Source: Polytrichum commune (Eukaryota; Streptophyta; Polytrichopsida; Polytrichales; Polytrichaceae). From it: a stretch of DNA of 64,000 nt. This document shows, piece by piece, positions 13,901-47,673 of the stretch. The translations under genes and the position numbers were made by a program. Position 1 is the stretch's first letter. Every line of letters starts with the position of its first letter. The stretch is from positions 4,464,501-4,528,500 of the forward strand of contig OX485805.1 in assembly GCA_950295325.1 (NCBI GenBank). Direction: 5' to 3'. The notes under the pieces are model-generated. The model did no database searches. It was not told where the DNA came from and saw only the letters and a list, made by a program, of their open reading frames with translations.

Positions 13901-14479
13901 GCAAAAGACGGGTTAGAATTAGAACACAGAATTGCCATCCACCCATACGAACATGCCCACGCCATCCCGTACTATTACCAAAAGGACGTCTGGGCCTCGA
14001 TGGCATACGTCCCAGACAAAGGCCCAGTAAGATTCTTAGAAAAACAAATTAAAAAATATGATAGGGAAACCAATATAGCAATCATGGCCACACAAACCCC
14101 CAACACGTGTAAATGGACAGAAAATATAGACATTGACAAAGAACTGTCTAACGAATTATGGACAAATCCCTTAATCACAGACAAACAAAAATCCTGCCTT
14201 ATTAAATTCCGCACAGGAACATACATGGGTAATGCTAGAAAACAAATGTTCTTCGGTCACCAGAGGTACCCCTCTATCACATGCCCTATATGCAATTCAA
14301 ACGATCCAGACACTTGGCTACATGTTCTACTGAAATGCAACCAACAACATATACACTCACTACGAATTAAAAGACATAACAAGCAGTCGGAGAAATTAGG
14401 AAGCTTCTAATCTCGTCCGAAAAATCCCGATGTTTTACTCTCATGAATGCCGGTACCTTCAATAATAACCCCCAAGAAA

Positions 14480-14900
14480 ATACAGTCCCCAATTGGCTAC
14501 TCCCCTGCACATGTAACACACAAAGATGTCATTGCAACGCAAGATTTTGACCTGATATACTCTGCGTTAAATGATTACCATATCAAAATGACCCTCCTAT
14601 TGACATTGACCCTAACCTCACCATACAATTTATTGAATTCACATATTGTAACGACAGATTTTCCCCAGAAACAATAGAAGCAAAAAACAACAAATACAAA
14701 CCTTTGATTGATAGTATTGCTTCCAAAGGATGGAAAATCGAACCACTTATTGTCATCACAGCTGGGGCCCGAGCTACGGCCCACATCCCATCTATGAAAA
14801 TACTAGAAGAAAATCTCAAAATACCCCTGGTTACCATCAAAAACACCTTTAAAAACATTAATACCATTGCAATACAATATGCCATGTCCATCCTCCTCCA
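14480..14900 (+). other. REL-like C-terminal domain remnant, copy A
   Basis: Downstream of the CCHC finger are a C-x-C-x4-C-x-C cluster (PCTCNTQRCHC), then PDIL, then IEFTYC and an Ile/Lys-rich tail. All are conserved with copy B although two TGA codons interrupt copy A. The conservation of PD and E-x-T despite decay argues that the domain was functional in the ancestor. Confidence 0.6.
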
Positions 14901-14984
14901 TAAGAGGAGAATTGAAAACCACCAACCGCTCCCCCAAAACTTAGACCCTCCATAAAACCCAAAAAACTTATATAATATTTAGTA

Positions 14985-15401
14985 TCTATTTACAGCTCAG
15001 AATGAGGGATTGGTGCCGGTTGGTTGGTACAAATTTCCTGCCTTTTACTCACTTGCAGCACCAAGTCACGCGTTACATTTTAGACGATCATACGGACTCG
15101 ACTGAAATCGAACCCGGAACGTCTTAACTCAAACATCCTCCCACAACCAACCGAGGAATCATGACTTGGCGTTCACTCTCATAACAAAAACACTAATTAT
15201 ACCTAAAAGGCATGCACCGCTGTGGGCCATGATTGGCCCACGTTATTTGTTTCTTGGTTACTATAGTGTCCATCCTCGAAAGAGGAGAGTAGTTTTGTCC
15301 CAGCTTCCCCATGTCCTGTGGGCATCGGGTTGTTGGCATTACGAACGGACACTCTATTCACGCCGGCCCCTAAAAAGGACCGGAGTTTCTATCTATCTAT
15401 C
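14985..15401 (+). promoter_or_regulatory. 3' UTR and (TATC)n tail of copy A
   Basis: This segment aligns with 33580-34076 of copy B. It includes a CAGCTCAG-like block, GGTTGGTTGGTA, CTTGCAGCACCAAGTCA and a reverse-oriented tRNA B-box-like AATCGAACCCGG, and ends with an imperfect hairpin (15363-15383) then TTTCTATCTATCTATC. Such conserved 3' ends are what LINE reverse transcriptases recognise to prime reverse transcription. The recognition role is inference. Confidence 0.7.
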
Positions 15402-15413
15402 TTGAGGGTTCTG
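15402..15413. repeat. Right target-site duplication of copy A
   Basis: An exact copy of 2631-2642 directly after the tail of the element. Confidence 0.65.
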
Positions 15414-19129: not shown

Positions 19130-21117
19130 TCACTGCCATAACGCACAATTAGTAGTAAAGAAATATTCTCATGTGGCTGGAGTGGATTTCAACAAGACCT
19201 TTGTCATGTGCTCAAATTCATTACCATTAGATGCATTTTCGTACTAAGAACGGCCATCGATTGGAAGCTCCATCAAATGAACTTAAAGGCGTTGCACGGG
19301 TAGATCACTCTAAGGCATTTTTGTGCACCACGTGAGGCTGGGGTTTTTTTTGTTTTGGGGCTATTTACCTTTAAGGGCTGAATTAAAGCCTCCTTATAAT
19401 TACTTAAATTTAAAAAATGACCCATTTGTTTGCACCCTTCCATTACTTATATTGTTCAAGTCATTGCAATTTTTGTACTCTATATTCCTTTTAAGTAATT
19501 AAAGCTAATCTACTTCCTAACGCAATTGACGAATGTTGAGGGAAAGCATGGAAACAAAGAAGGGTGCAAACAGTAATACCATTGTAAACATAGTTATGAA
19601 GAAAACACATAGGAGACCATAGCAAAGTAATACCAATTATCATCCATTCCTGTGAGTCCTAAACCCATTTACATACCATACTAAACATGCCTTCTAGGAT
19701 CCTCATCTTCAGCCCCTATATTAATTTTACAAAAAAAGAATGGCCCACGTTTTATGTTCATCTAACTTACTTATAATGGGATTGTCTACATTTAATGGCC
19801 CCTTCATTATTTGGAATTCCTTTATAATTTTTATTTCAAATGATTTTAATCCTCTCTATATTATGCCGCACGTCGTTTTTAAAATGCACTAAGTGATCCA
19901 CCCGTGAGGCGTTGTCTTTGAATGGAGTATTAGAGGTGAAGATCTATATGAATCAAGCAAAGGGTTTCGTACAAGAGGGGAAAAAACACCTTGTGTACAA
20001 ACTCAAGAGTTTTGTATGGGCTTAAACAATCGCCGAGGGCATGGTACCACTATATCGATTCGTTCTTCATCAACGAGGATTTTTGTAGGAACCAAGCAGA
20101 TCACTCACTATACGTCAAACAAATGGGTGAGTATTTCTTGGCGGCAATCCTCTATGTGGACAATTTGATCATATTGGCAAGAAATGTAACACAATTGAAG
20201 TGACTTATATTGGAGTTCAAGAAAGAATTTGCGATAAGTGATCTCGAAGAGTTGTATTATTGCCCAAGAGTGGAATTTGATAGGAATAAAGAAGCCCATA
20301 CCATCACCATTAACCAAATGAGCTACATTGAGGAGGTCCTTAAATGCTTCAACATAATTGAATACAAACAAGCCCAAACTCCGTTCAATGCAAATTCAAA
20401 CTTGTTAATACTTTTGGATGAGGAATTTTAAAATGTGTAAAATGAATTGCAAGGTGTTTCCTACAAGGTCGGGGTAAGATCTCTTGTGTACGCAATGATG
20501 GCCATGAAGGCTTATATTGCATTTGAGGTGAGTATGATAAGCTAATTTATGTCGAAAGCCAACCACCGCATTGGATGGCTATGAAACGCATTATGAGGTA
20601 TTTGAAGGGCACTTTGGACTGTAATTTATGCCTCGGAAGCAAGGATATTACCTTGAGAGGAATTTGCTATGCGGATTGGGCAGGAGTTGCAAATGACCGG
20701 CGATCCACCACATGTACGTGTTTTTTGTTGGTGTTGGAGTTGTTTTGTGGAAATGTAAGAAACAACCAAGCATTGCATTGTCTACGACAAAGGCGGGGTA
20801 CATGGTCACTAGCCATTGCATGAAGGAAGCGGTTCGGCTTAAACAACTTTTGGCGGATGTGAGATACGAGCAAGAAAGATTGACATCCATCATGTGCAGC
20901 AATCAATGATGCATATCACTTGCAAAGAATCCCACACACCATTTTTATACCAAACATGTCGATATACAATATTACTTCATTAGAGAGAAACTAGAAAACC
21001 AAGAGAAATGCTTGTAGTATTTTCCAACAAAGGGTATGATAGTGAACGTACTAACCAAACCGCTTGCAAATGATGGGCATCAAACATTAATAAAGGAAAT
21101 GGTTTAGAAGCCTTTGA
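19130..21117 (+). pseudogene. Ty1/copia reverse transcriptase-RNase H remnant
   Basis: Frame-broken fragments match the C-terminal half of copia pol: VVKKYSHVAGVDFNKTF, then YGLKQSPRAWYHYIDSFF, LYVDNLIILA (the active-site LYVDD with D to N), YIEEVLKCFN, MRYLKGTLD, ADWAG, DRRSTT, STTKAGYM (SSTEAEY in active copies) and a final NDGHQTLIKEM. Several stops and frameshifts are present, so it is dead. A hAT-like element splits it at 19295-19906. The 3' part runs into the target region of non-LTR copy B. No LTR could be delimited. Confidence 0.85.
19295..19906. mobile_element. Non-autonomous hAT-like element (612 bp)
   Basis: Terminal inverted repeats CACGGGT(A/G)GATCACT begin at 19295 and end at 19906. 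Flanking 8-bp duplications AGGCGTTG (19287-19294 and 19907-19914) fit the hAT superfamily. The insertion lies in the copia RT at the codons for the conserved KTAFLNG-like motif; removing the element and one duplication restores continuity. There is no coding capacity. The same ends recur at 53805 and 57628, so it is a family. Confidence 0.85.
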
Positions 21118-21297
21118 CTACTCGTAAAATAAAAGAGGCATGAGAAATAATAATGTTAGAATAAGGCCACAATGCTAGTTCAAAGAAGGATAAAAATTAT
21201 TTCATATTGTTTGTATGGATCAAAGAAAGAAAGAAAAATAATAAAGGACAAAGCAAAGAGAACATGAGACCATCTCACTCCAAGCATTGTTCATATG

Positions 21298-21309
21298 TCT
21301 TTGTGTATG
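21298..21309. repeat. Left target-site duplication of non-LTR copy B
   Basis: TCTTTGTGTATG is repeated exactly at 34077-34088 after the (TTC)n tail. The first bases overlap the tail sequence, so the true duplication may be 10-12 bp. Confidence 0.75.
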
Positions 21310-21385
21310 GGGTTGCACTCGCTCACACCAACGTGTGTAATCCGAATCACGAGAGGGAGGCACCGAAAATGGAGAGAAGACAGCC

Positions 21386-21547
21386 ACAACGAAGTCTGCG
21401 AGGAAGATCCGAACAGAAGCAGCAGCAGATCAGCCAGTACCTAACAGCATTGAGCGAGAGAAGAGAACAACGAAGTCTGCGAGGAAGATCCGAACAGAAG
21501 CAGCAGCAGATCAGCCAGTAACTAACAGCATTGAGCGAGAGAAGAGA
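21386..21547 (+). repeat. Two tandem 81-bp units in the 5' leader of copy B
   Basis: Units 21386-21466 and 21467-21547 begin ACAACGAAGTCTGCGAGG and differ by very few bases (for example GTACCTAAC versus GTAACTAAC). 81 bp is a multiple of three, but the reading frame has no ATG here. With the 155-bp units of copy A, both copies carry tandem units in the leader although the unit sequences differ. Confidence 0.9.
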
Positions 21548-22658
21548 GACGAAGGCGACAGAAGGAGGTTATGAATACACTGCGGCCCGAACAATCTGCG
21601 GCGCCCCTAATACCGTACACCTGAAACAGAGAGCTCCGAAAAGAGCAACAGTTCGGCAAGCAAGCCCAGCAGATCGACATCAAGAATCTGAACTCAAGAA
21701 CGAGGAGGCAAGTAGACCAGATCTAGATCTAGGAGTGAAGGAGGGTAGGAGCGGAGCTTCACCAACATCCATCAACAAAACTAGGGTTTCACCCTTACTT
21801 ATAATATGGGTGCTAATAAGCACCATCCTCTTGTGTGCTTGCACACACCACAATGCACTTCCATCAAAGCTCACCCCCATCATCAACTCACCAAGCTATC
21901 ACCCACCAAAGACACCACCCACAATCTATCCACTAAGAGGTTGCCACTCAAAGCTCCAAAATACCAACTCATCAATACCACCTCCCACAATCTACCCACC
22001 AAGCTACCCCCAACACCCAATACAACCATCAACTCCCTACTCATCAAGTCGATACTACTCCACCACAAGACCACCTCCAAGCTCGGAATGTATGCCACAC
22101 CCATCCATATCGCCGCCACCACCCACACAACACAAAACCACACACATCAAGGTAAGTAAAGCCACTTGCACTCACCAAACACTCATTCCCACCAAAAGCC
22201 ACCACAAAACAAAAAACAAACTATCTATAAACTTACCTCCAAAAAAAACATATCGGAGCTCTAAACCCCGCCACATGATGATGGTCCAACACTCCCTCTA
22301 TCAGAAATCCGCCAAAAACCACACAAGATCCAACAAAAAGGCAGTCACCTACACACACCCACCACCCCCAAACCTAAAAACCACCCACCCAACAAAAAAC
22401 CCCCCACACACAAAGCATGCAACATCCCAATCTAAGAAAAAACCCACCTCACCAAGGCATACCAAGGCCGAAAATACAACACACAACCTGCACCAACCTA
22501 GAATCGCCGAAACCCCCAAAGCAAATCTCACAAGACAACTCACACATCCAAAAACAACATGCCGCCATCTACATACAAGGCCACACTCTCTCACTCAAAT
22601 ACCCTCGCCTCCCACACTCTCAACCATCCATCTTTTCCACACCTCCCTACCCACCATC

Positions 22659-25082
22659 ATGGCCACCAGCAGAGAAGCCCACAAGACCCCAGCAGAGAGT
22701 AATGGAGCAGATTCGGCAACCAAACTAAGGAATGGCACAGACACAAACTTTACGGGACAGCAGCGACAGTCAGGTCGACGTCTGCAACAGTTACACAGCA
22801 GCAGGCCAGAGAGAAGCGAGAGCAAGGCCGGCAGGAGCACAGGGAGGATGGACGTCGAAGAAGAGGAGCAGCCCGGCGTCGAAAGCACCGGTCGAGGAGG
22901 AGCCACGATGGAGATAGCAGGCAGGGCCAGCGAGAGAGCCAAAGGAGGGGTCGAGGCCGGACGGACCGGCAGCTACAGACTAGGGACCGGGACCCGGAGA
23001 TCTAACGGCTCCAGCAAGAGGAGCGAGAGCGGCGAAGGCAGAAACACAAGGAGCGGTTCCAGACGGAGAGCTCTACTAGACAGCTACAGTGATGAAGACG
23101 AAGAAGAGAGAACCATAAATGGGCAGCACGCAAACCAACCTACCAACGTGAAGGAGATGGCCCCTCCCTCACAAGATTATGATATCGACATGCAATTAGT
23201 GGACATCTCACCCGAGCACGGCGGGAGCTTTCTTCAACTTTCCACATCAAGGGACGAGTATGCGGCCACTCCCAATCAAGCCGGCATACCGTCATCACGA
23301 CTCGAAGCTATCAACCTAGCCGATAGGACCCCTCCAACATCCATGCACAATGACAACACCACCGACACTCAAAGCGCCAAGAGAAGGAGGAGTGAGATGG
23401 ACACACATGCATTCGTGACCGGCACTAGTAAGCAACCAATCACCCGCAACAAAGTAGCAATTCCAAGCATCGACATAGTGGCACACATGTGGCTCGGTTT
23501 TCCCATCCATGAGGCCATGGCATTGCATAGAGGAACCGAGATCATAAGGGAAACCCGCACCAATGAGGAGTTTGCCATGATCGGGACCCCCTCAAAAGAG
23601 ATCCTTGAATTCCGCACCCTTCGAAGAGCATTCCCACACGTCCCTCAAGCATACTACCCGAGCGAGAGACCGGATGCGGTCCCGGGGCACCACCTCCACT
23701 TCACCCAAGTTCCGAGACTAGAAAAGATCGACCCAACCACCGGCCTCTCCGAGGGGTTCCACATCACCATCCGCTTCGACCATGGTTTCAAGAGCATTAG
23801 CCGACATGAGGCGAAGAAAGCATGCTTAGAACGGCTTCAACAAATGGACATCCCACTCAGTAACACATACTCCAACCCTCTTGACATAGGAACCAATGCC
23901 GTTACTAAGAATTGGGCGGGTTTCATAAAAATGCATTTATTACGCCCCAAGAGAGATGGACTAGCATTCTTACATGGCAATAGGGCATTTGTCATGGAAA
24001 TGGAGGATGGAGAGAGAGTAATAGGCAAGGTAGAGAAAGGACATGAATTAGTCACCAAGGCTAGCAATCTACGTTTACACATCAAAGGAGAAACCCTCCG
24101 ACATGAACATCCATTTACCATCTTTGAAGCATTAGTACATGAGAGCTATTACATAGGCAAACAAGATGAATTTATGGGACTTACCAAACCGGAGGTAGAT
24201 AAAAACTACGCTTTTCTTACACTCACTACGGAAGAGGCTAGGGACAACGTGCTCAAAGATGGAATCATCTTCAATCAAGAGAAGCTCCAAGTTAGCGTCA
24301 CACGTGATCGCGGCACCGGCAACCCATCGGAGCTACGCATTAGCACCACGCTCGTCGCCAATAATCTCCCACAACGAGAGTCCCAAACCACTATCTCGAA
24401 GGTCATCAAACAAACATTCGGAGCGGACAACATAGTTGGCATTGGCTTCGACAACAACACCCAAAACGACAAGCAAGCGGGTTGGTGTCATATCCAATGT
24501 CTCAACGCCGCGGTCTACACGGAGTGGCTTCACAAATCGGTCTACATCCTCGGCCGGCGCATAGATTTCATACCTCATCGCGGGAGCATAGACGGCACGG
24601 ATCCTAACAAGACATCGATTCGCCTAGCCCAAGCACCCGTACGTGAGGCGATAGCGGATAAAATACAAGCCATGAGCAATGCCACCAACTCCAACCCGCC
24701 CCTCACCGAAAAGCACCTTACCAAAACCATGAAGGAGTTTGAAGACAAGTTGGATGAAAATTTTGGTACGCTAACCACCATCATCAACAACCACACGGAT
24801 CGCCGATTCGAAGCAACTACGGCCACGATCACACATCACACCGCCAATCTTCAAGCGCTCCTTGGTACGATCGCCCACGAATTTCAACAATCCAACCTCC
24901 GAATGCAAGGCTTGGTGAATGGCCTCTCCGCCGCCGCACCGGAAATCCTACAAAGAACCGCTCCACCCTCGATACCGCAAGGTCTCCATGCGAACACCCC
25001 ACCACTCCCCCTACAAGCCCCCCCGGGCTTCCACACTAACCCACAAATGCATCACCAAGGACCCAACGCATTTAATGGTTAG
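22659..25082 (+). CDS. ORF1 protein of copy B: RRM-like domains plus coiled coil
   Basis: This is an intact frame. I chose ATG 22659 (CATCATGG, strong context, MATSREAH) because it corresponds to MATITPT in copy A and because the open frame extending to 21531 has no ATG near its start. The product is about 807 residues. The N-terminal ~230 residues are Arg/Glu/Ser-rich and probably disordered. They are followed by WLGF, then segments with RRM-like beta-alpha patterns (GFHITIRF, NWAGFIKMHL, STTLVANNLP with GWCHIQCLN as RNP2/RNP1-like), then a C-terminal helical coiled coil of about 130 residues and a Pro-rich tail. It probably binds element RNA and multimerises, as LINE ORF1p does. No zinc knuckle is visible. 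A hydrophobic segment encoded upstream (about 21795-21845) resembles that of copy A ORF1 but lacks an ATG. Confidence 0.75.
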   Translation: MATSREAHKTPAESNGADSATKLRNGTDTNFTGQQRQSGRRLQQLHSSRPERSESKAGRSTGRMDVEEEEQPGVESTGRGGATMEIAGRASERAKGGVEAGRTGSYRLGTGTRRSNGSSKRSESGEGRNTRSGSRRRALLDSYSDEDEEERTINGQHANQPTNVKEMAPPSQDYDIDMQLVDISPEHGGSFLQLSTSRDEYAATPNQAGIPSSRLEAINLADRTPPTSMHNDNTTDTQSAKRRRSEMDTHAFVTGTSKQPITRNKVAIPSIDIVAHMWLGFPIHEAMALHRGTEIIRETRTNEEFAMIGTPSKEILEFRTLRRAFPHVPQAYYPSERPDAVPGHHLHFTQVPRLEKIDPTTGLSEGFHITIRFDHGFKSISRHEAKKACLERLQQMDIPLSNTYSNPLDIGTNAVTKNWAGFIKMHLLRPKRDGLAFLHGNRAFVMEMEDGERVIGKVEKGHELVTKASNLRLHIKGETLRHEHPFTIFEALVHESYYIGKQDEFMGLTKPEVDKNYAFLTLTTEEARDNVLKDGIIFNQEKLQVSVTRDRGTGNPSELRISTTLVANNLPQRESQTTISKVIKQTFGADNIVGIGFDNNTQNDKQAGWCHIQCLNAAVYTEWLHKSVYILGRRIDFIPHRGSIDGTDPNKTSIRLAQAPVREAIADKIQAMSNATNSNPPLTEKHLTKTMKEFEDKLDENFGTLTTIINNHTDRRFEATTATITHHTANLQALLGTIAHEFQQSNLRMQGLVNGLSAAAPEILQRTAPPSIPQGLHANTPPLPLQAPPGFHTNPQMHHQGPNAFNG

Positions 25083-25801
25083 TGACCACCTAGGACATCA
25101 CAAATGGTCTCTTTTTCTTACATATTGTATTACTTTTTTATATATATAATAAAGAGCTCACAATAATGTTGGGTAAACTTGCCCCATACTTAGGCATCCA
25201 CAAAGTCCCCCCCACCGATAGACATACATGTATCTCACTCATTACACTTCTTTCTTTAATAACATACATACACACTAACCCCCCAAGTCCACACCATATA
25301 ACATATCACACCACCTCCATGAATAGCACACACATAGTATACTCATGGATGTTACTCATACATCTATTATGTACCTCCCTTCTACATATAAATAAAGGAT
25401 ACACACTTACGTCCAAAATAACCACACTAGGAGCAAAATCTCCCACATACACGCCCAAATACAAAACTATACCCTCTACCAACCAAGCATACACCATAAT
25501 AATTACACTTCTCACCATGACAACATACGTACACACCAACCTCCTAACATCACAAAACATAACCCACACAATCACATATATCCCCCACACAACATATATG
25601 ACCCATACATCTACCACCACTTCCCCACACCACAACTATACCCACACACACAAAATAACAAACTCCGCACAAACCATAATACCACCAAAATCCCCCCCAC
25701 CACACACACTAATAAACAACATCAACAACATAGGCAATATTTGTCACATAACACACATACATTTTAAAACCCCAAAAACCAAAAACATACAATATTACAC
25801 A

Positions 25802-25858
25802 TGGAACAACTCCACACTCATTCTTCTATGTGGAGATATACAACTTAACCCGGGCCCA
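25802..25858 (+). other. 2A-like motif 1, copy B (GDIQLNPGP)
   Basis: TWNNSTLILLC precedes GDIQLNPGP. It matches the 2A consensus except Glu to Gln. It is part of a repeated module with the next two motifs, which share YYxWNNS upstream. Skipping would release the N-terminal hydrophobic peptide. The Gln may reduce efficiency. Confidence 0.7.
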
Positions 25859-26035
25859 CAATCACACATATGTACATACACCACACATAAACAAATACAC
25901 AACCTATACACAAATCACAACAACACAACCCACACAATCACCCCCATTAATATAATGACACATATAGGCAACTTCTACTACATAACACACACACACCACA
26001 AAAAACCAATAATTAAAATCATAACATACTACATT

Positions 26036-26092
26036 TGGAACAACTCTACACTCATACTCCTCCACGGAGACATTGAACTAAACCCGGGGCCG
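26036..26092 (+). other. 2A-like motif 2, copy B (GDIELNPGP)
   Basis: WNNSTLILLH precedes GDIELNPGP, a full match to D-(V/I)-E-x-N-P-G-P. It lies 78 codons after motif 1. This is the best candidate for an active skipping site in copy B. A membrane-segment-like stretch (YIIITMIILSC) follows it. Confidence 0.8.
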
Positions 26093-26452
26093 CTTTCAAC
26101 CATCCTCAAAAACCTCCCCAAAGAATACACACAAAGAGTTTACATAATAATCACCATGATTATTCTCTCATGCACGTTCACCCACATCACCATCCTAACC
26201 CTACATACCACTTCACTAAAAGCATTTTATGGATACCACACATACCACCCATACCATAAAGCTACAACCACCCTCCCATATAATCATCCCAACCACACAT
26301 ATAACACCCATAACACCATCCAACCCATCCCACTCAACCAATCCACACTCCAAACACCAATTATAATCTTCATAACACATATAAGCACCATCCGTCACAC
26401 AACCCACACCCACCTCAAACATCCAAAAACTAAAGTTACACACTACTATACA

Positions 26453-26509
26453 TGGAACAACTCCATAATCATATTACTAGGAGGTGACATCCACCCTAAC
26501 CCAGGATCT
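26453..26509 (+). other. 2A-like motif 3, copy B, degenerate (GDIHPNPGS)
   Basis: WNNSIIILLG precedes GDIHPNPGS. Glu is His and the final essential Pro is Ser, so skipping is not expected. By position (followed by MPDLLKTHP; MPNILLTHP in copy A) it is the orthologue of the single motif of copy A. It is 139 codons after motif 2. Confidence 0.75.
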
Positions 26510-29500
26510 ATGCCTGACCTATTAAAAACACACCCCCCTGACCACAAGAGAAGACAAACAACATATTTCCTACCAAGTACGATCAAATTCCACCCAGAAT
26601 ACCAACACTTGGCCGAAACATTCAAACCCTTTTTCCAAAACACACATCCGCTACATACACAAATAATACACTCCCTTCCATACTTGTATAATCACATACA
26701 ACAATATAATCACCATCCTCCCCCAAGGGTCATCTATGCAATAATCGTAACCATTAATCCCTCCACTCTAACATGTAACACACTCCTACACCACCAACCA
26801 ATACAAGAATGGACATCTCAACTATTAGAAAGAATGTCAAGATTGCAAAACCCACCAGAAAGACACATAGACATCCCACACCCATATACACAATTTTGTC
26901 ATATATATAAAGATACTATCACCCCTCCCAACACAATACACAAACAATTATATGATTATATACATCTAGACCATAACTCCGTTAATATGGAAAAATTACA
27001 AGAAAAATTCCCATATCTACCACGACAACTACTAATGGAGGCACTAAGATATAACGAACCTATAAATGAATACACACGTCCTAACCCCCCCATTACTTAC
27101 CATTCAACACCCTCGCCCAACCCGGTCCCGCTAACTAGTCAAGAATCATACGCCATAACCTGGAATGCCTCCTCACTAAACACTGCCATGCCATATCTAC
27201 AAGAACTAATTACGGACCCCAACAACCCCCATCAATCATCACCATTCAAGAAACCAAGCTTTCCGCCATTAAATCCACAAAATATATACAACACCTATTC
27301 CCTCAATACAAACTTTTCTTCAACAACACACACAACATCACAAGAATCACACGCCAACGAATGACATATAGAGGATATAGAGGAGGACTACTACTACTAA
27401 TACACAACAAACATGCATTTCCAGGTAATCTTTCCAAAATTCCCACCCCCGCAAACATATCCTCATTCCTCCAAGTAACGCGCATAGCAAACCAACCTTT
27501 ACAACCATGACTCTTAATTAATTTATATATGCCTTCGCATGAGGAGGACCTACCTCTCATCCCCATCATACAAACTAACATCACTCATCAAATCAATACA
27601 CACCCTAATCACGCATACATCCTATGTGGAGATTTTAATAGAGATGTTGCTTTGATTGGAAGACAAAACGACCAACAAACCACACCGCCGCAACCGGAAG
27701 ATTACCTTTGGCGATCCTTTACAACCAATCTAAAACTAACATACATCCCGACAAACACAACATTTTCAAGACAAGGAGAACATAATTACACACAAAATAG
27801 CCTAATAGATGGATTTTACATCAAAACCCCACATAACCACCAATTCACCTCAACTACAAATCAAACAACACACCTAAACTCCGATCATCTACCTATACAA
27901 CTCCGAATACCCCCAAACACACTTATAGCAAGAGAACCAATCACAACCCCCGACCCACCATTTAGGATACTCAACCCTATACCCAAGGAAAACCTAGAAA
28001 CCTTCCACACTAAATTCTTCGAGGACAACTCAAACCAAATCGACGAGCTCATACAATTGTTAGAAAATTACCACTTGACAAATGAACAATGGCAACTAGC
28101 ATGTCAATCAATAAGTTCCCTCACCGACAACATTACAACCACCGTCCTAGAAACATGTAGTGCCCCACCCATTCCCACGCTATCAAACAAAATTGCTAAA
28201 CAAGGAGGCTACCTTCCAAAGAAACTCCAAAAAGAATGGAAAATACATCTATCTACCTACCATCTTATTAGAAAAATAATATATATTATAAAAAACAACC
28301 CAAATTGGCGAATTCACCCCATTATCACACAAGAAATTAACAACCATACCTCTGTTACTATACCCCCACCTCCACATCTTTCCCACCCATACGAAACATG
28401 GTTAGCCAACTTAGCCAACATCGCCAAAGAAGCTAAAAACAAAGCCCGCAAAATAACAACAAACTACACAACCCAACAAATCAAAAAGCCATATGTAAAT
28501 ACCAACAATTATATGACAAAAGTCCCAAGAAAATTAATAGAAAAGTCTTCAAGAATATTGACACCCCCCCCTTAGACTGCCTAATAGACCGATTTAATAA
28601 TATCCTTACAAGCCCCACAAACATCGCACAAGAAATATATGTGCAACAATCCATAAGCAATAGACCAACCGTCCCAACATGCCATTATCAAGCCGATCAC
28701 CCACAACAATGCCTATGTGGAGTTAGACAATATCCGTGGCACGACCTCAACGGATTTACTATAGAAAAGAGAGGCGAAGCCTTAACCCCCTTACACACAT
28801 ACCTAGACCAAGAAACATACGATATATGTCTTAAAAACCTTACCAACGGAAAAATGCCGGGACCCGATCAAATTCCTAACACCATACTAAAAAATATGCC
28901 GCCAAGATTCCACAAGCTTCTATTATTATTTTTTACCCACTGTTATAAACAAAAACAAATACCTGAAGCTTGGAAAACGAGCCTTACGATACTCTTATAC
29001 AAAAAAGACAACCCCCATCACCTCACCAACCATCGACCTATTGCACTTGCCAACACTATTTACAAATTATTTACTAGCACGCTCACTAGTATACTCTCCT
29101 CATACGGGGAAAAACACCAAATTCTACATGATAGCCAAGAGGGCTTTAGAGCTGAAAGATGCACCGCCCGACAACTTCAAACCCTCATCGCTGCATTAGA
29201 AGATGCACGACTCACTAACCAAGACATCTACATCCTATACATAGACTTCAAAAATGCCTTTGGCTCTATCGACCATGCTAGACTCCTCGCCATTATGAAA
29301 GACTTCGGTTATCTGCAAGATGCCGTAGCACTAGTAGGAAATATCTATTCACAATCAACCACCACATTTATCGGGGAATACTTCGATAAAACACTACCCA
29401 TACCCATACAAAGGGAAACCATACAAGGAGATACGCTAAGCCCTTACCTCTTCATCATCTTTCTCGAACCATTACTTAGATGGCTACAACGCGGACCCCA

Positions 29501-32500
29501 CGGATACACCTTTAAAACCTCTAATACAAAATTAAGCTCCGCGGCCTATGCGGACGACCTAGCGGTCATATCCAACAATATGACATCCATCCAACAACAA
29601 TTGAACAAGCTAGATAGATATTGCGAATGGGCCGGAATGGACCTCGGCATCCCGAAATGCGCAATCACAAGATGCCCAAATAAATCCAAACTAAATGCAC
29701 AAGCCTTTAAAACACATTTAACGGCCATCAATATTAACTTCCGAAACCAACCAATACCGATACTAAGCCAACACGAACCATATGTTTACCTCGGAATCAA
29801 TTTAGTTCCATCACTACAATGGAAAACACAAACGCACATCACAACAACCAAACTAATCAAACAATGTAAACTCCTAACCACATGCCCAGCCACCATGAAG
29901 CAAAAAATACAAATGGTTGACACAGTCATAAGAGCCGGCATAGCCTATAGCTTTTATGCCGTCCCATACTCACTTCCCGCTATTAAAAAACTAGATAAAA
30001 AAATAATTGCCCTACACAAAAATATATGTGGCCTCCCGAAATGCCTATCAAACGCCGTTACACAACTTCCACAAAATATGTTCGGCACCGAAGCTTTCTC
30101 ACTAAAAAACGCCTATATAACATGTATCGGAGAACAACTCATCAATGCCCTCAACGACCAAGGAAGACTTGGAAGAATATATAACGGAGTAACCAAACAT
30201 ATCCTTGCCAAACATGGCGGATCACTCCACTTACCACGAATAACCCCACATGATTGCATGAGATCACCAATTACTAGAACATTATACCTACTCAAAAATA
30301 CTAGTGACACTCACCTTAGAAGTACACTTGCAAAATTCCCCCTTCACCCTACGCCATTAGAGACACAATGGATGAGTCAAGCACACCATATACCCACACT
30401 AACTCCCACCACTTCCCTCAAATACTTACATAAATTAATTTTACACAACATAACCGAACTAAAACACATAACGCACCCCAATGGCACGCACCTCATGACA
30501 AATGATGAATTCAAGTACTATTATGCCCCACCCACTAAACTAGTTAAAACCGCCCTAGAACACGCGCGTAAGATATTTTGTAAACCCCCTTGTCATAACC
30601 AATGCCTAAATACTTGCCTAACACATACGACACCCAATACTCTCAAGGACGCCTACAAAATACAAAATCATCATATAAACACAAGCCTAAGTAGACATAA
30701 CATACACCCCATGCCACCCCCACTACCGGAATATCCAAAACCCCCCTTACACATCCAACAAAACCACATACAATTCCCAATACAATCTATAATAAACGAC
30801 CACCCTCACACATACAAAGACAAACACAAAATCACAAAACACTACACATCCTACCTTTGCCAATGGGTACTTCCTAACGAAACCAAATACCATAAATGGC
30901 TCCCACAAAGAGACTTGTTCCCTTGGAACAACCAAAACACTATAAATCACAACATACTACTCTTAACACAATACTACACCCAAAAACAACACCAACACTT
31001 CACCAACATTCTCCAAATAAACTTTAGTGAAGCACAAATGAGAGACACAAGATATGTCCGCCCACCACAAGACATACCTCTATGCCACATTCATATCAAT
31101 GAATGCAACCCAGATAATGACATTGAATGCACACAACACACCATTCAAAGCCAATATGGCGAATCACACATCTATGATAATGACGGACGCCACCTAATTA
31201 CCATTCCCGAACTAAGACTACAATGGCTATGGGAACAATACCAAAATGCATTAAACAAACCACACAACTTAGAGCCCCCCATACAATCCTTTGAAAAAGA
31301 AGTGGCATGGTTGTATCAAAGATACAAATATAGAATGCCCAAAAACGACCCCCTTAAACTCTCACAATACACCCTCCCAAATGCCATCATAGAAAACATC
31401 ATTGACTCCTTCCACATCACCCATTCCTACTTCTCATCACCAATCACATGTCCTACTACATTGAAACAATTCTCCTCCCCATTTTCTAGGGACAAGGTAT
31501 TCGGGTCAATAGGCACAGCATTCCAACATAAATGGGCAGGGATGGGATATGCCCACCCGCACACAGAAAAAGACACCCAACAAGCCCTACATTGGGCTAG
31601 ACTTGCCGCCAAGCATAACCCAGACACAATCACAATACTCATAACAACTGACCCAAACTGGTACCACAACCTCAACCCCCATGAAGGCCCTTTCCCAGAT
31701 TCTCACGTTATCTCACATTTCAAAGCAGACACCATTGCATATGATGAACCCACAATACCCCCGGAATTACGAACTAACCCACGAACAGAAAATCATGACA
31801 TCCGCATATTATGTATACACCACAAACACACGTCCCCCGGATCATGTGAATATGCGAATCGTATGGACACTATTAGCACTACCCTCCAAATACCCACATC
31901 ATTTCACACACCGGCACCGCCTACACCTATAAACACCTTAGTAAATAGAAGCAAGAAATGGTCCCAACTTATATACCCGCCCCCCCATCCACTTACAAAC
32001 CAAACTTCTAACACTCCCATATACACGAATCAAGACATATGCCTACCCCTCAAATACCACCCACAATTTTGCTATTACACGGATGGATCATTCATGCCAC
32101 CCAAAGAAATAACCCGAGGGCATTGGAGAAGAGAAAAAGCAGGGTATGGTATATATAACCCTTTCAAAAACCTCAAAATCACAGAAAGACTACCCGGACT
32201 CCAAAATATACTTAGGGCAGAACTTATGGCTATACACCACACCCTCCACCTCCTCACTACCACATACCGGAATGAACCGGCACATATCTTTACAGATTGT
32301 CTCAATGTCTTATACCTCCTGAACACGCAAACTAAACACCCAACACTACACAATAGCCACCCGGATAAAAAGATACTAGAATCCATAGTTAAGATGTTGC
32401 AATCCCGCACACAAACCACCACACTACACAAAGTCAAAGCCCACACAAACATTCAAGGTAACGAACAAGCCGATAAATTAGCAAAATTGGGTTGTGAATT

Positions 32501-32861
32501 AGAACATAGAGACGCTATAGCCACACATGAGCATGCGCACCCCACGCCATACTACCTCCAAAAAGATTGGTGGCATTCAATGCAAGAAACACCAGACAAA
32601 GGCCCCATCCGACACCTTGGCAAATACATCATCAAACACGATAAAAAACACAACCTATCCATTCTAGCAACCCAAACACATCAATTACATAAATGGCTTG
32701 ATAATAAAGATATCGACAAAACATTATCAAATGACTTTTGGACCAACCTGGCTATCTCAGACAAGCAAAAAACGTGCTTAGTAAAATTCCGAACCGGACA
32801 ATACATGGGACAAGCTAGAAAACAACTCTTTTTTGGTAGAATTGCATACCCATCCCATACA

Positions 32862-32918
32862 TGTAACATTTGCAACTCATTAGAAGCGGATACATGGCTA
32901 CATATACTCCTTAAGTGC
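32862..32918 (+). other. CCHC zinc finger after RNase H, copy B
   Basis: The spacing is C-x2-C-x9-H-x4-C, followed within about 10 residues by KRHN. In R2-type elements a CCHC finger and an R-H pair sit immediately before the restriction-like endonuclease, so the finger supports that reading of the C-terminus. Copy A keeps the same residues (14282-14338). Confidence 0.75.
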
Positions 32919-33086
32919 AAACAACAACACATCCACGCACTAATTACAAAAAGACATAACAAAGCGGTATGGGAAATACGCAAACTTCTTGTCTCAAATA
33001 AAATAACAAGACACTACATACTCATGAACGCAGGTACATATAATGAACTACCCCAAGACAACACAGTACCAACATGGTTACTACCC

Positions 33087-33500
33087 TGCACATGTGGTAC
33101 CCAAAGATGTCATTGTAACGCTAGACTCAAACCCGACATTCTATGCATTATAGGGCACCCTTACGATTCCCCACCACCAGAAGCACCCACACCAGAAATT
33201 ACAGTTCAATTTATAGAATTCACATACTGTAATGACAGATTCTCCACTGAAACCATAAATCAAAAAATCACAAAATATCAACCACTCATAAATAATATCA
33301 TCGCAAAGGGTTGGAACGTAGCCCCACTTATTGTATTAGCATCTGGTGCCCGAGCCACAACTCACATCCCCTCAATGAACGAACTTGAAACAAAGCTCAA
33401 ACTCCCCACATCACAAATTAGGAACACATTCAAACAACTTAACATAATTGCCATCCAATATGCACACTCAATATTAATCCACAAAAGACGAATAGAAAAT
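33087..33500 (+). other. Restriction-like (PD-(D/E)XK) endonuclease-like domain, copy B
   Basis: Landmarks in order: C-x-C-x4-C-x-C (CTCGTQRCHC), KPDIL (PD at 33132-33137), a Pro-rich loop, QFIEFTYC (E at 33216-33218), then KITKY. R2/NeSL-type nucleases show CCHC, RH, KPD, D/E-x-T/K and K-x-x-K-Y in this order; here the gap between PD and E is about 26 residues, longer than usual. This is motif reading by eye. An alternative is an uncharacterised C-terminal domain without nuclease activity. Confidence 0.6.
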
Positions 33501-33579
33501 AGACAACCCATCACAGACCTACAAAATCATAACTAAAATTAGAGAGGGGTAGTGGTCAGACCACTAGTTATTAAGTTAC

Positions 33580-34076
33580 CACCTATAGCTCAGAAAGGCG
33601 GGGAGTAGCCGGCTGGTTGGTATAACTTTCCTGCCTATGATTAACTCACTTGCAGCACCAAGTCAAAGTGTATTGCACTAACACGCTCAGACGGATTCAA
33701 CGCGAATCGAACCCGGACCGTATTAATACAACACGCACGTCCTTGTCCAACCAACCTTGGAACCATGACTTAGCGACCAACAACACAATCAACCATCATT
33801 TATACTCAAACAAATACGCACGCTTCTCGTCTCCAACATAGTAGCAAAACCCACATAATTCTAAACTAAAACCCATGCACCCAACACACCACCCTCCCCC
33901 CCCCCCCCCGGTTCAACCGGTTAAAACATCGGTTACTAACATAGTGTCTACTCCCTGCAAAGGGTGAAGTAGTATTACACCCAACGCCGCTACCCTGGGG
34001 TACGGCCACGGTTGTCCTACGAACAGACACTTTATTCACTCCGGTCCCTAGTAGGGACCGGAGTTCTTCTTCTTCT
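33580..34076 (+). promoter_or_regulatory. 3' UTR and (TTC)n tail of copy B
   Basis: It aligns with 14985-15401 in copy A. It contains TAGCTCAG, GGCTGGTTGGTA, CTTGCAGCACCAAGTCA, a reverse B-box-like GAATCGAACCCGG, a poly-C tract near 33895-33909, and the terminal hairpin. It ends in a TTC repeat instead of TATC, so the tail sequence differs between copies while the hairpin is kept. Confidence 0.7.
34041..34061 (+). other. Terminal 3' hairpin of copy B
   Basis: CCGGTCCCT-agt-AGGGACCGG is a perfect 9-bp stem with a 3-base loop immediately before the TTC tail. Copy A has the same hairpin with one mismatch (15363-15383). It is a plausible recognition structure for the element's reverse transcriptase. 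Confidence 0.8.
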
Positions 34077-34088
34077 TCTTTGTGTATG
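34077..34088. repeat. Right target-site duplication of copy B
   Basis: An exact copy of 21298-21309 directly after the tail. Confidence 0.75.
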
Positions 34089-36532
34089 TATATATGCTTG
34101 TGCAATATCGTTACTAGTTCTTATTGACTTCCAATATTTGGTACAATCTCGTAGTGTCCTATTTCGGAGAGGGTGCCCTTTTGTCAAGGTCTATGGAACA
34201 AAGTTCGAGAATATGGTCTTAGAATTCTCACATATATTATTAAATATTAGGAATAAAAATAGGGCATTGCTAAATCGACCACATAGTTTGTTAAAAGGAG
34301 CATAGAGACACGTTGCATGGTCACGTGACTTTGTCAAAATTAGATTTTTCATCGTACACATGAAGAGGAGCAAGGACTTAGTTCTATGTTGGAATTAGTA
34401 AACTTGGCCAACTTGGATGACAAGTCAAAGCCTAGTCGACACCTTACATATTGAATATGATTATTTGACCAGTGTGTGTTCGATTTAACAATCCTTTGAA
34501 TATATACATTTGGAATGGAAATTCATGGATGATATTGCAACATAAATGGCACCTTTAGCTTTGCACCATTTTCTCATAGGAAATGAAACATGCAAATAAT
34601 GCGAGATGATTAGCAAATCAAGGCATTCTATATCAAATTGAAGACTCCCTTTCTTATTGAATGATACATATAGGTCCCCCCATTTATGTTGACTATTGAT
34701 ACTGGTTAGCAAATTGAGCATATAATCCCCTCTCTTTTCAATACATGTGGGTGCAAGCACAATAAAATGGACACCTCTTGATCCTTGCACATGTTTAAGT
34801 GAAAGGGATTCAAGCTTTGAGTTTTGTGATAAAAAGAAAACATCATAAAAGTCCTTAACACATATTGATTTACAAAGCCAAGAAATTCACATTGATAAAA
34901 AAAATCTCAAAAAAATCTCTACAAATCTTAGAAGACAGTGTCAGTGGTGTGCAAGTGGTGATATTGAGCAAATAATTGTCAATAAATAAATAAATATGAT
35001 AAATAGCATTTGATTGATAATTTTCTACAAACATATTTGATGATGACCTCAAGTGTATGATGAATTCAAGGAATGTGGAAAATTAATGAAATTCAAAATA
35101 GTTAAGGTCATGAATTTTACGTCTCTACAAGATCTAGCCATTTGCTTTTGAGCTTTAAATTTATTGATAAGTTTAGCCAAAAAAAGATAATTAAATAAGC
35201 TAAATTCAACCCAATTGCACCAAACCCAATTATGTGGCCATGAAAATCATGTGTTTTTGAAAAAATGGGGTCATGTGGAGCTCACCCAACCTCCATCTTG
35301 TGCCACCATGCACTTACACATTAGTTGTCCATCACTATAACTTTACTGCCCAAGTGGATGGGACAACACTTAGGGTTTTTCCTTATCTCAAAATTCAAGA
35401 TTAGATTATAGATGGTGGAAATGCTACATCTAATAATTGGCAATTGCCAAGTGGTGCCCCCGCCCCTAACCCCTCCTATGCCCACTTGGCTACCCTACAT
35501 GACTCTTAACGAGCAATCTCAGCTTCGTTCCTAAAACAAAAGAATATGGGTTGAAATTTCAACGCTCTTATAACAAGTTTGTATCAATTTGTGACCAAGA
35601 GAGAGACAAGTCTTAATGTTCCCACAAATTTATAGATGGACTTAAAGTTGCAATATTTCACTATGTATAATTTATAAATGGGATGAGGTTTCTCCTATTA
35701 GAAATTATGATATTTAATTATTTTTCTCATATGTTACAATTTCGCTTACATTTTATTCCCACTTTATTTAATGAGTTTTGCTAAATCATGTGGTATCAAT
35801 ACCATAGACTAAGTAAAACATTACTATCATATTTTTTTGGGGTTTGTAAAAATTGTCATTTATCCCATGGACATACATCCCTAGTTCTTTAAGAGTTGAT
35901 CCTTAAGCATCTTAGAGACCTACACTATGCCTCTACATGCAATAAGACATGTAATTGACCTACATACTTTCAATTTTGATCAAATGTGTCATAAATGATT
36001 GTACTCAAAATTAACTCATTATTCTAATGCTACTTTTCAAACAAGTTAAACATAAGATTTTTTTACTGAAAATTTGGGTTCCAATACATAGACTTGGTGT
36101 CTTCAAATGAGAATGTATATTTAGTATTTTGACCATCCATGCCATATATGGGTATTGCCTATTTGACATAAGCTTATGATGTACCAAATAATGCTTCAAA
36201 CCTATATATATCAAAAAATATGACTTACAAACTTAGTGAGGTTGGTAGAAATCGTGCATATAAGGTAAACATGTGTTGCTCAGATATTTTTGGCTCTACA
36301 CTAATCTACACTTCTCGGAGGATCTGAAACATGCAATAACTGTAAGTTAATTATTAGCAATTTTAGGTCATGGCCGTAACCATTTGTCTCATAATATGCA
36401 AAGCTTCAAAATTATTTTCATAATATGATAAAATGAATTTTAAAAAAATGCTCATATCAAATGAAATCTAACTATTTCTTTGAAATAGCATGTTGAATAA
36501 CAATTGTTGCATACCAAGTTTTCACAAATTAA
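34089..36532. other. Repeat-rich DNA without a gene
   Basis: 34150-34660 is a copy of the repeat that is tandem at 36.5-39 kb (shared block: GGCATTGCTAAATCGACCAC). 35222-35600 is the inverted partner of 38985-39335. The remainder (34660-35220, 35600-36480) shows nothing I can name. 36295-36430 is similar, in reverse orientation, to the last 150 bases of the window. Confidence 0.6.
35222..35600. repeat. Left arm of a long inverted repeat pair
   Basis: The sequence from GTGGCCATGAAAATCATG to the TTATAACAAG region matches the reverse complement of 38985-39335, with small indels. The arms enclose about 3.4 kb containing the ~500-bp tandem units. They may be long terminal inverted repeats of a fold-back or Mutator-type element, or simply two oppositely oriented copies of one repeat. 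Confidence 0.7.
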
Positions 36533-38966: not shown

Positions 38967-38984
38967 CTATATTATACAAATTTG

Positions 38985-39335
38985 TTATAAAAGCGTTGAG
39001 ATCTCAAGCTATAGTCTTTTGATTTAGGAACGAAGCCGAGATTACTCGCTAAGAGTCATGTAAGGCGGGCAAGTGGGCATAGGAGGGGTTAGGGGTGGGG
39101 GCACCACTTGGTGATTGCCAATTGTTGAAAGTAGCAGTTCCACCATCCATAATCTAAATTGGGATTTTGAGATAGGGAAAAATCCTACATATTGTCCCGT
39201 CTACTAGGGCGGTAAAACTTTAGCAATGGACTACAAATGTGTGAGTGCATGGTGGCACAAGATGGGCGCTAGGTGACCTCCACATGACCCCCATTTTTTC
39301 AAAAACCCATCATTTTCATGGTCGTTTTATGATAA
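38985..39335. repeat. Right arm of the long inverted repeat pair
   Basis: It is the reverse complement of 35222-35600. It begins after the last tandem unit and ends near the CATTTTCATGGTC motif. Orientation relative to the left arm is opposite. Confidence 0.7.
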
Positions 39336-41129
39336 TTTTTTTTATGGTTGCATTATAAATGTAGTTAAAAAAAGGATTGAAAATTGACTAATTAATTGCC
39401 ATGTGCTAAATTCGGACCGTAGCCTAGGAGATAGAAAAAATCAAAATTGGGAAGGTTGGTGTCTGATACGAGAGGTTGCATACTGAACATGCATTGAGAC
39501 ATTTTTTAGTATGTAGAATAGGTAGGAGTATGAGAAGAAGGAGACTCCAAGAGAGAGTCCAAAAGAAGTCGAGTATGTGAGAGATTTTTGTGAGGGACAA
39601 TAGAATTTTGGGAGTTCACAAATCAGTGTTTGATATGTGTTTGAGGTTGAAATTATCTTGGGCCATAATCTATTTTCATAATTAAAATTTTCGGAAGTGA
39701 TGCCTTGGACCATGAATTGCTCATGTGACTGCTTAATTTCTTTGCAGTGATGTTGAATCGATTGTTTGTGGTGATGTGGATGCTCAAGTTGGTCGTGTAA
39801 TGATCATACCCTTGGAATCTCAAATTTGTGAATGTTTGATTGTATGGGCTTGCTATCATAATATTCTCATACTTAATTTGATCCAAGTAAGAGTGAATGT
39901 ATGACTATAGTCATGTGTGGTGGATTCTATCCTTTAGTGCGTATGCACGTTGAAGTGACTCACAACAAGTGTGAGTGAATTACCTATCCTCCGAAGAATG
40001 GACAGGGTTGATGTATGATGCCAAGAGTCCGAGATAGACTATGGTGTTGGAAAGTATTAGTAGTCGGTACCCTGGTAAATGAAAGAAACCTTGGAGCAAG
40101 GGAGAGACAATAATCTTGAATGTTTAAGCCCGGAAAATATCAGAGTATACTACCAAGACCATTGACTGAGGAGGGATTAAGTACAACCTTGCCATGAATG
40201 TGTAGGCATTAAGAGATGAATGAAAGGATTACAAGAAAATCCTACATGGTCTGTAGTGATTAGACAATTATTAGGGCCACGGATTTAATTAGGAATGTTC
40301 ATGATAATAACGGATCACAAACAATTTGAGAAATTTGGAATGATTTCAAATTGAGATATCATGAGCCAATGGAACTCATACTCTCCATCACAGTTGATAG
40401 CGTAATCAAAATGTGAGCAAGAGACAATAGGACTTATTAACTTGTGAATTGGAAACCTCATTGCTTTAAGTGCAATACATTATGAAAAGGAGTGCAGGCT
40501 ATGGATTGATCCAATACAAACACTTTTCTCTAGAGAAGGAGGAGAGCGAAAGGTCAATAGTCTGAGGAGGTCATTGAATGGCCGAGCAAAACCATAGTCT
40601 ACCAAGAGTTTCCGAGAAGCCCAAGAGTTGGAAGAGGCTATGATCAAGTAAGCCTCCACCTTAGCAAAGGTTTCTAACCTAAAATGACCATAACCGAATG
40701 TATCGGGTGGACCATAATCTAAGGATCTACCTCATTTAATGCATATTGATTGCATTAATGATGTATGGACATAGTGAAATTCAACTTTGATGGATAACAA
40801 AGGAGTTAAATATGAATCATGGTATTTTCAAGCATTATGATTAAGAAGTGATACGATCAAATTAAAGGAAAGACAATTGCTAGACAATATAACTAAATTC
40901 ATCTTCAATCAAGAAAGACTGAAAATCTTGTAAGTGTAGGAAGATATGTGAGGATATGGTCTCAGGGTTCTCACATATCTTCCTACACATTAAGAATAAG
41001 AATAAACCATTTCTAAATTGACCACGTAGTTAGATACACAAGCCAAAGAATGAGCTAAAGATTTGAAAATCCAATTCTCCTGCATGAAAATGAAGGTTGG
41101 TAGTTCCAACAAAGAATGCAAACGACAAG
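39336..41129. other. Unresolved DNA
   Basis: There is no supportable gene. AT-rich sequence with short open frames only. 40940-41040 shares the GGTTCTCACATAT and GACCACGTAG blocks of the ~500-bp repeat, so some of it is older repeat debris. Confidence 0.4.
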
Positions 41130-41580
41130 AAGACGACGTTTTTTATGTTTGAAATGGGCTAGTAGATTATATATTTTGTTATACATTATATTTGTACAAC
41201 AATTTATTATATATGTTGTATATATAATATATTGATTGATGATATCAAAGTTTTAATATGTAGTATATATTTGTATGGTTGAATAAGGATTTATTTAAAT
41301 AAGAGTTTGAATTATGTTTTCAAACATTAATAAGTACACTACACTCAATAATGAACACAATTGAGAGGACCTATGTATCCAATTTAAAAAGCAACAAACA
41401 CGCATTTCCGATAGCCACAACTAAATCAAAGGAGGTCTAATTTTTAGTCTCATTTCTACATGTGTCATCGTCAAATTTGCTAATGGAACTCGATTATATT
41501 TATATAAATCTAATCAATAGAATTTGGAAAATATGAAAATAGAACCAAATAACATCCACATACCTTGATTGGATAATATC
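41130..41580 (-). repeat. Copy of a long-TIR element end
   Basis: This segment is the reverse complement of 58745-59165, including the ATTTGGTTC-like terminus and the AT-rich inner part. No partner end was found nearby, so it is probably a truncated copy or one end of a degraded element. Confidence 0.65.
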
Positions 41581-41874
41581 TTAGTATTTCTAAGTCAAAC
41601 CGGTTACATGTTCACATCTTTCCGTTATTCAACTACAGGCTCTTTTGGTTCAATGATTACAATCTCACTCCTTAACAACATTTTCAAACCATGCACAACT
41701 TGTGCATATCTTTATAATATATTACCATACATATATAGAAATAGAAAAAATACTAAATTTGACATATTCACTTATGTAATAAATCAAATAAGTGAATTTG
41801 AAAATTCATTTCATAATATAAATAAAATCAATTACATAATGTATTTGGTCATTTAAAATGAAATATAACCATTT

Positions 41875-47631: not shown

Positions 47632-47673
<42 letters not shown>

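Follow-up and report, generated by a model that had tools for sequence, protein, structure and literature searches.

Can a single retrotransposon of a land plant carry two different DNA-cutting enzymes, an apurinic/apyrimidinic-type endonuclease (APE) and a restriction-like endonuclease (RLE) of the R2 type? The question is raised by a non-long-terminal-repeat (non-LTR) element in a 64-kb stretch of plant DNA (hereafter the window; C3:4464501-4528500, to which coordinates refer unless a contig is named). At 25166-33536 an initial annotation had read a second open reading frame (ORF2) with APE, reverse transcriptase (RT), RNase H, a CCHC zinc knuckle and an RLE, and had proposed a relative of Dualen/RandI or an independent dual-nuclease lineage. 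The Dualen/RandI elements are long interspersed nuclear elements (LINEs), reportedly described from green algae by Kojima and Fujiwara in 2005. From sister copies in the same genome (407.8 Mb, 64 contigs searched) we conclude that the element is very probably a Dualen/RandI-type LINE of some 10.7-12.8 kb that has multiplied in a land plant and was recently active there, an assignment drawn from its domain set and 3' tail. All the motifs listed in the annotation were found where it had placed them, and Pfam backs the APE, RT and RNase H. Its span does contain those motifs but is too short, the element running from about 21310 to 34077 between target-site duplications (TSDs), and it had missed ORF1, the 2A-like motifs and a PCIF1-like domain. 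The features of the window copy are as follows.

21298-21309, plus strand: 5' TSD TCTTTGTGTATG, a 12-mer that recurs at the 3' junction
21310-34077, plus strand: whole element, a full-length but defective copy (TSDs, shared 3' end point, 5' part shared with two other copies)
21522-25079, plus strand: ORF1 frame, stop to stop, of which 23490-24734 can be aligned to the ORF1 of another subfamily
25094-27361, plus strand: ORF2, N-terminal part, containing three 2A-like motifs (frames, motif search)
25832-25858, plus strand: 2A-like motif GDIQLNPGP (motif search)
26066-26092, plus strand: 2A-like motif GDIELNPGP, which fits the C-terminal 2A rule D[V/I]ExNPGP as given in the excerpted text of PMC4981915
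26483-26509, plus strand: third 2A-like motif, NPGS here and NPGP in the sister at C2:51458781 (motif search)
27161-27888, plus strand: APE endonuclease (WNASSLN, QETKL, CGDFNRD, IDGF, SDH), with a frame break and a stop (Exo_endo_phos_2, 9.2e-7, Pfam; motifs)
29001-29804, plus strand: RT with FKNAFGS and YADD (RVT_1, 1.6e-27, Pfam; R2 RTs at the top in the PDB)
31254-31634, plus strand: PCIF1-like methyltransferase domain between RT and RNase H (PF12237, PCIF1_WW, 3.4e-9, 37.0 bits, cut-off 31.1)
32067-32495, plus strand: RNase H (RNase_H, 6.9e-15, Pfam)
32862-32918, plus strand: CCHC zinc knuckle (motif search, alignment)
32952-33533, plus strand: RLE with RHN, CTC..CHC, KPD, E (in FIEFTYC) and K..KY (profile match, selection, motifs)
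33944-34065, plus strand: structured 3' untranslated region (UTR) with a GC-rich stem-loop at its end (covariation against shuffles)
34061-34077, plus strand: (TTC)n tail, no poly(A) (junction reading)
34077-34088, plus strand: 3' TSD TCTTTGTGTATG, its first letters common to the tail

That one ORF2 holds the domains named in the annotation is true of intact sister copies but not of the window copy, where ORF2 is divided among three frames (25094-27361, 27511-28572 and 28437-33533); the frame breaks part the APE from the RT, and a stop codon lies inside the APE part. The protein from RT to C-terminus matched at least 32 genomic places at 65-100% identity (29 candidates scored of 8131), and seven of the 32 matches, the window's own among them, extend from residue 2 or earlier to residue 1625 or later without a stop. 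Eleven sister loci of about 10 kb, all selected for long open frames, were fetched (L009, L011, L013, L015-L022); eight further fetched loci stop short of the 2A region. ORF2 is a single unbroken frame from 2A motif to RLE in six of the eleven: stop to stop it measures 2625 aa in both L009 and L011, with 32 differences between them, and within the fetched pieces 2779 aa in L018, 2757 in L019, 2663 in L020 and 2372 in L021. The other five are broken (L013, L015, L016, L017, L022). In the intact sisters the order is 2A-like motif, APE, RT, PCIF1-like domain, RNase H, zinc knuckle and RLE, and it is constant although ORF2 identity between subfamilies drops to about 40-45%. The number of genomic matches and the six unbroken frames argue that the element is more than a chance assembly of frames. 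The 99.0% identity of L009 and L011 over 10.7 kb shows that movement was recent.

Both nucleases are recognizable by their motifs. In the window APE, QETKL lies at 27247-27261, CGDFNRD at 27625-27645 and SDH at 27880-27888; all five APE motifs are in frame with the RT in L009, L018, L019 and L020 (L018 without the IDGF spelling), and four of the five in L021. Pfam scored the APE above cut-off in the window, L018 and L021, and slightly below it in L022. At the other end of the protein the RLE motifs are RHNKA (32952-32966), PCTCGTQRCHC (33084-33116), KPDIL (33129-33143), FIEFTYC (33210-33230) and KITKY (33264-33278). RHN, P-D, the E within FIEFTY and K..KY are kept in all nine C-terminal rows (about 42-99% ORF2 identity); the zinc-knuckle pattern is common to the nine by construction, because the C-termini were cut out by that pattern. 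An hhalign comparison of the RLE with those of three R2 proteins scored 32.9 (probability 48%, E 1.8e-4; 36.8 and 85% under other settings), against a mean of 12.7 for 200 column shuffles (standard deviation 2.2, maximum 21.6, best probability 3.2%), 16.8 for the reversed profile, 19.2 for the C-termini of four L1 elements of the same genome and at most 14.9 for the other testable ORF2 blocks. Foldseek ranked R2Tg first for a low-confidence AlphaFold2 (AF2) model of the C-terminus (E 5.9e-3, prob 0.94). VIA-align likewise gave R2 RLE regions the first four ranks (Z 5.5, 5.4, 4.7 and 4.6, middling by the tool's own note), followed by a mix of bunyaviral cap-snatching endonucleases, which are themselves of the PD-(D/E)XK kind, and unrelated proteins. 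The initial annotation had asked whether the C-terminus lacks a PD-(D/E)XK core; the R2 RLE match, together with the low-confidence model, does not bear this out.

Selection points the same way. Ratios of non-synonymous to synonymous substitution (dN/dS), obtained with an NG86 script from six non-independent pairs with saturated cells dropped, are rough because dS often exceeded 1; they were 0.082, 0.116 and 0.133 for the APE (three pairs), 0.084-0.096 for the RLE (four pairs), 0.035-0.059 for the RT and 0.048-0.141 for the RNase H (five pairs each) and 0.092-0.172 for the PCIF1-like domain (six pairs), and 0.45 and 0.55 upstream of the 2A motif. Thus, both nucleases and the PCIF1-like domain are maintained, and the claim of a dual-nuclease family is upheld by the sequence motifs and by purifying selection on both enzymes.

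Where the RT belongs was examined in a tree of 19 rows (eight elements of this group, four L1s of the same genome, human L1, three R2 elements and three group II introns). The group (100/96), L1 (95/98) and R2 (92/94) each formed a supported clade, and the joins among the three are unsupported. The RT, with its YADD at 29547-29558, thus fell outside the L1 clade; a place inside plant L1 was what the initial annotation had said would count against its proposal. In the approximately unbiased (AU) test, a grouping with the same-genome L1s that leaves out human L1 has a p of 0.03 (0.31 with all L1s). In a profile search of the PDB two R2 proteins were best (9nl2, 1.4e-28; the other 8.8e-27), while R2Bm (2.4e-17) was about level with L1 (3e-16). 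No relatives were found outside the genome when the RT and RLE alignments were searched against viral contigs and the RT against genome contigs. The RNase H motifs YYTDGS, LRAE, FTD and NEQAD lie within 32073-32474.

Upstream of the APE, copies carry one to three matches to GD[IV]..NPG[PS], in the window and in ten of the eleven sister loci, with none in the broken L017. The exact D[V/I]ExNPGP occurs as the window's second motif and in L009, L011, L013, L015, L018 and L022; variants elsewhere read GDIQL, GDIQP, GDIHP or GDIKP, and some depart from the published rule at the E. MPNIL directly follows the motif in L009, L018, L019 and L020. In the window the 2A segment looks triplicated at 25823-26509 (YYTWNNS..ILL.GDI..NPG), which suggests a duplication of 2A modules. 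ORF1 is a separate protein, 28% identical between the window and L009/L010 over 418 aa (E 1e-44), and matched no Pfam family above cut-off.

The PCIF1-like domain is widespread: all 150 scored matches to PF12237 (of 697 genome candidates) were above cut-off, the best at 55.6 bits, and many lie in frames of 1000-2900 aa, its location between RT and RNase H being established only in the fetched elements. L021 (27.4 bits) and L022 (26.1 bits) fall below the cut-off of 31.1. Its FASPL.C, FGS.G and LP... segments align weakly to solved PCIF1 chains (E 0.04 and 0.36). GYAHPHT, at 31545-31565, sits where the catalytic NPPF is expected; the placing of human NPPF opposite HPHT comes from the weaker of the two PCIF1 alignments alone, and since two PCIF1 control stretches are missing from the printed alignment it gives no check on that position. 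NPPF was absent from all 25 rows (20 fetched genome matches and five full ORFs; 24 distinct loci): the 20 matches read HPH (17), HPP (two) or HPY (one), and L021 and L022 diverge more. A search for [NDS]PP[FYW] was likewise negative, both in the domain as read from nine ORFs and in those frames of the 20 fetched stretches that match. Because NPPF is absent the domain is unlikely to be catalytic in m6A formation; its probable role is a non-catalytic one, the binding of capped or 5'-terminal RNA.

The ends of the element are also characteristic. Its last 120 nt have a conserved structure with 97.5% of cells paired, as judged from nine of thirteen cut sequences after near-duplicates were dropped; L021 and L022 do not share the stretch. 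Two-sided changes numbered 22 cells against 10.1 in shuffles (none of 500 as high; slid versions at most 5), but the 6 pairs changed on both sides do not exceed shuffles (225 of 500), the same alignment had served to derive the structure, and the signal is largely one two-subfamily split. Rfam gave only one chance-level match on the 3' UTR, far below gathering score, and ARAGORN found nothing in the window. The window subfamily ends in (TTC)n; the L009, L018 and L019 kinds have (TATC)n instead, and the tails of L021 and L022 are putatively TTTTC-like. At 17 junctions the flanking letters were all different, and no site specificity was seen. A purine came first after the tail at 10 of 11 and 5 of 6 junctions, a weak preference because the cutting of tails excluded T in the first set.

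When the letters of the 230-base upstream flank were shuffled 2000 times, two shuffles reached the length of TCTTTGTGTATG, and TSD-like repeats of 14 and 13 bp, reached in none of 2000 shuffles each, flank two sister copies; the initial letters also fit the TTC tail, and without them 7, 12 and 10 letters are left (window and two sisters). All three window-subfamily copies read at both ends have TSDs, and neither of two in the L009 subfamily. The 5' side is shared (97%) by two other copies from about 21369 and 21432 in a DNA search of the genome; on the 3' side (40 places scored of 1234 candidates) 38 of 39 long matches besides the window stop at query 534-547, that is, at window 34073-34086. 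The flanking repeats and these common limits set the element at about 12.8 kb. Leaders of 59, 28 and 22 nt separate the 5' TSD from the shared body (window 21310-21430, L035 and L036), which after them opens with a tandemly repeated stretch; by eye the three seem mutually unrelated, as though other RNA, or upstream promoters, had supplied the extra 5' sequence. L036 (C6:3092150-3092550) appears to adjoin or lie inside a 3' end of the L009/L019 kind in reverse complement, a nesting within the group that was also judged by eye. Four copies taken as 5'-truncated were rejected as such, since their sequence runs on past the end of the protein match.

These parts can be fitted into a cycle of target-primed insertion. 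The 2A motif, on its sequence, would make ribosomes skip and so free the enzyme part from the ORF2 leader; the ORF1 and ORF2 proteins would coat the RNA, and the RT would recognize the 3' stem-loop and repeat tail. First-strand nicking would fall to one nuclease, most likely the APE in view of the T-rich junctions and short duplications, and the nicked end would pair with the tail and prime reverse transcription. Beside the zinc knuckle, as in R2, the RLE would make or help the second-strand cut a short distance away, and the RNase H would remove the template RNA. A bolder scenario, which we consider doubtful, is that a land-plant dual-endonuclease branch took up a PCIF1 fold, lost NPPF and kept the domain under selection as a reader of the capped 5' end; a 2A-released polyprotein would then recognize both template ends, the 3' stem-loop by RT/RLE and the 5' cap by the PCIF1-like domain, with two nucleases for two strands.

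Several results weigh against assignment to a dual-nuclease LINE of the Dualen/RandI kind, or against parts of it. Pfam saw no APE in L009 or L019 at E 0.1, though the motifs are present and these regions are 69-70% identical to that of L018. The AF2 models, each built from a window-only alignment, are of low confidence (mean pLDDT 38.6 for the C-terminus and 37.4 for the PCIF1-like domain); Foldseek returned no match at or below 0.001 for either, and with the latter retrieved no PCIF1 and no meaningful match. A PDB profile search with the RLE (C-terminus alone) missed R2 and gave nothing useful. The tree tool warned of long branches meeting, the AU test allows the group with all L1s (p 0.31) as well as with R2 (p 0.55), and kinship to Dualen is judged on domains and tail. 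No TSD was found in the L009-subfamily copies at C1:17.95 Mb and C5:35.13 Mb, and the division of first nick and second cut between the nucleases is conjectural.

Four other explanations were considered. The APE and RLE may have been united separately in plants, in a dual-nuclease lineage independent of Dualen/RandI; the group has its own well-supported RT clade, with no supported join to L1 or R2, and its PCIF1-like domain, 2A motifs and ORF1 go unmentioned in the excerpted Dualen accounts, yet just this uncommon combination (APE, RT, RNase H and RLE, with a non-A tail) is reported there for Dualen/RandI, and we hold a separate origin to be improbable. The annotation's pair of alternatives, relative or independent lineage, is supported as a pair. 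A comparably small chance attaches to the C-terminus being a nucleic-acid-binding remnant, with the APE as sole DNA cutter: insertions that look non-specific (17 junctions with different flanks) and duplications of up to 12-14 bp would suit an APE element, while the retention of P-D, E and K..KY in nine of nine rows and an RLE dN/dS as low as that of the APE speak against a remnant.

To read the element as a plant L1 whose C-terminal tail is generic is very hard to sustain. The AU test does tolerate a join with the whole L1 clade, and an APE is common to both; against this, Pfam at E 0.1 matched neither PCIF1 nor RNase H in the L1 proteins L023-L025 (L024 lacks both its ends, and the other two scanned proteins end in a stop), the four L1 C-termini scored within shuffle range against the R2 RLE (19.2, as against 32.9), and union with the same-genome L1s without human L1 was rejected (p 0.03). 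The window copy, with its nucleases in different frames, might by itself be taken for two elements, one nested in the other or wrongly assembled next to it, that give an apparent double-nuclease ORF. Six sisters on contigs C1, C4 and C5, from subfamilies with identity down to about 42%, run from APE to RLE in one frame and refute this, barring an assembly error at every one of the six; its likelihood is practically nil.

The window holds a second copy of the group.

4774-15402, plus strand: second element, L009 subfamily, defective (96.8% identical over 10.7 kb to the element at C1:17.95 Mb)

Its RLE is readable only in separate frames, and inspection by eye alone found no clear TSD. Directly upstream of the first element, 20600-21308 shows similarity to a different repeat family (more than 30 places, mostly 75-82% identical). 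Downstream, adjacent plus-strand frames at 45862-52478 encode a protein kinase, NB-ARC and leucine-rich repeats (LRR) of about 50 near-regular 72-nt (24-aa) units; together they probably form a single resistance-type gene of the kinase-NB-ARC-LRR type, whose LRR array is strikingly regular. This gene is bracketed by inverted repeat arms at 41028-41737 and 58572-59299 (82-90% complementary, about 17 kb apart); 331-nt arms at 35254-35584 and 38974-39304 are 84% complementary and 3.4 kb apart. The host had been called a bryophyte. LEAFY-type SAM matches at four genomic places and the kinase, NB-ARC and LRR frames support a land plant, probably a moss, kinase-NB-ARC-LRR genes being typical of mosses.

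Near-identical single-frame copies with both nucleases under selection make the strand-cutting roles testable in a land plant, and the 3' structure with its short-repeat tail is a concrete candidate for the template-recognition site. The PCIF1-like domain, above cut-off at no fewer than 150 places, would mean that a mobile element has recruited an RNA-cap enzyme fold. Among the literature matches listed there was no dual-nuclease LINE in a land plant, no PCIF1 domain in a LINE and no 2A in a plant LINE; the founding Dualen paper and a review of eukaryotic adenine methylation lay outside the search, and prior mention is possible there.

Set beside known systems, the element shares with PCIF1/CAPAM, the m6Am methyltransferase, a PF12237 match above cut-off and a weak alignment of segments, but the moss domain is without the catalytic NPPF tetrad. 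Like the 2A-bearing non-LTR elements of trypanosomes and animals, as excerpted from PMC4981915, it has GD[IV]..NPGP upstream of the APE; it differs in its plant host and in motif number, which reaches three per ORF2. Same-genome L1s (L023-L026) resemble it in joining APE and RT in one ORF (L023, L024), whereas their RLE-like signal is within shuffle range and their RT is in another clade; the moss element has neither an RT inside the plant L1 clade nor a poly(A) tail, and in flowering-plant L1 the tail is (A)n in 224 of 233 (PMC3747384). R2 (R2Bm 8gh6; R2Tg 9dou and 9nl3; 9nl2) is close in RT profile, and RHN, KPD and K..KY of the two RLEs align; the moss element differs in its APE, RNase H and PCIF1-like domain and in the lack of visible site specificity, whereas members of the R2 group are RLE-only, have no APE and are usually target-specific. 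Closest are the Dualen/RandI elements. In the excerpted text of PMC4640811 Dualen keeps both APE and R2-type RLE, RNase H is present in Dualen/RandI, and APE LINEs are thought to have arisen by the APE replacing an R2-type RLE, a view that rests on Dualen's position. Algal RandI has non-A 3' repeats in eight of eight families (table 3 of PMC3747384, likewise excerpted). The PCIF1-like domain, the 2A-like motifs and the TTC/TATC tails found here go unmentioned in those Dualen accounts, and the host is a land plant instead of a green alga; what the two share is APE and RLE in one element, an RNase H and a 3' repeat tail other than A.

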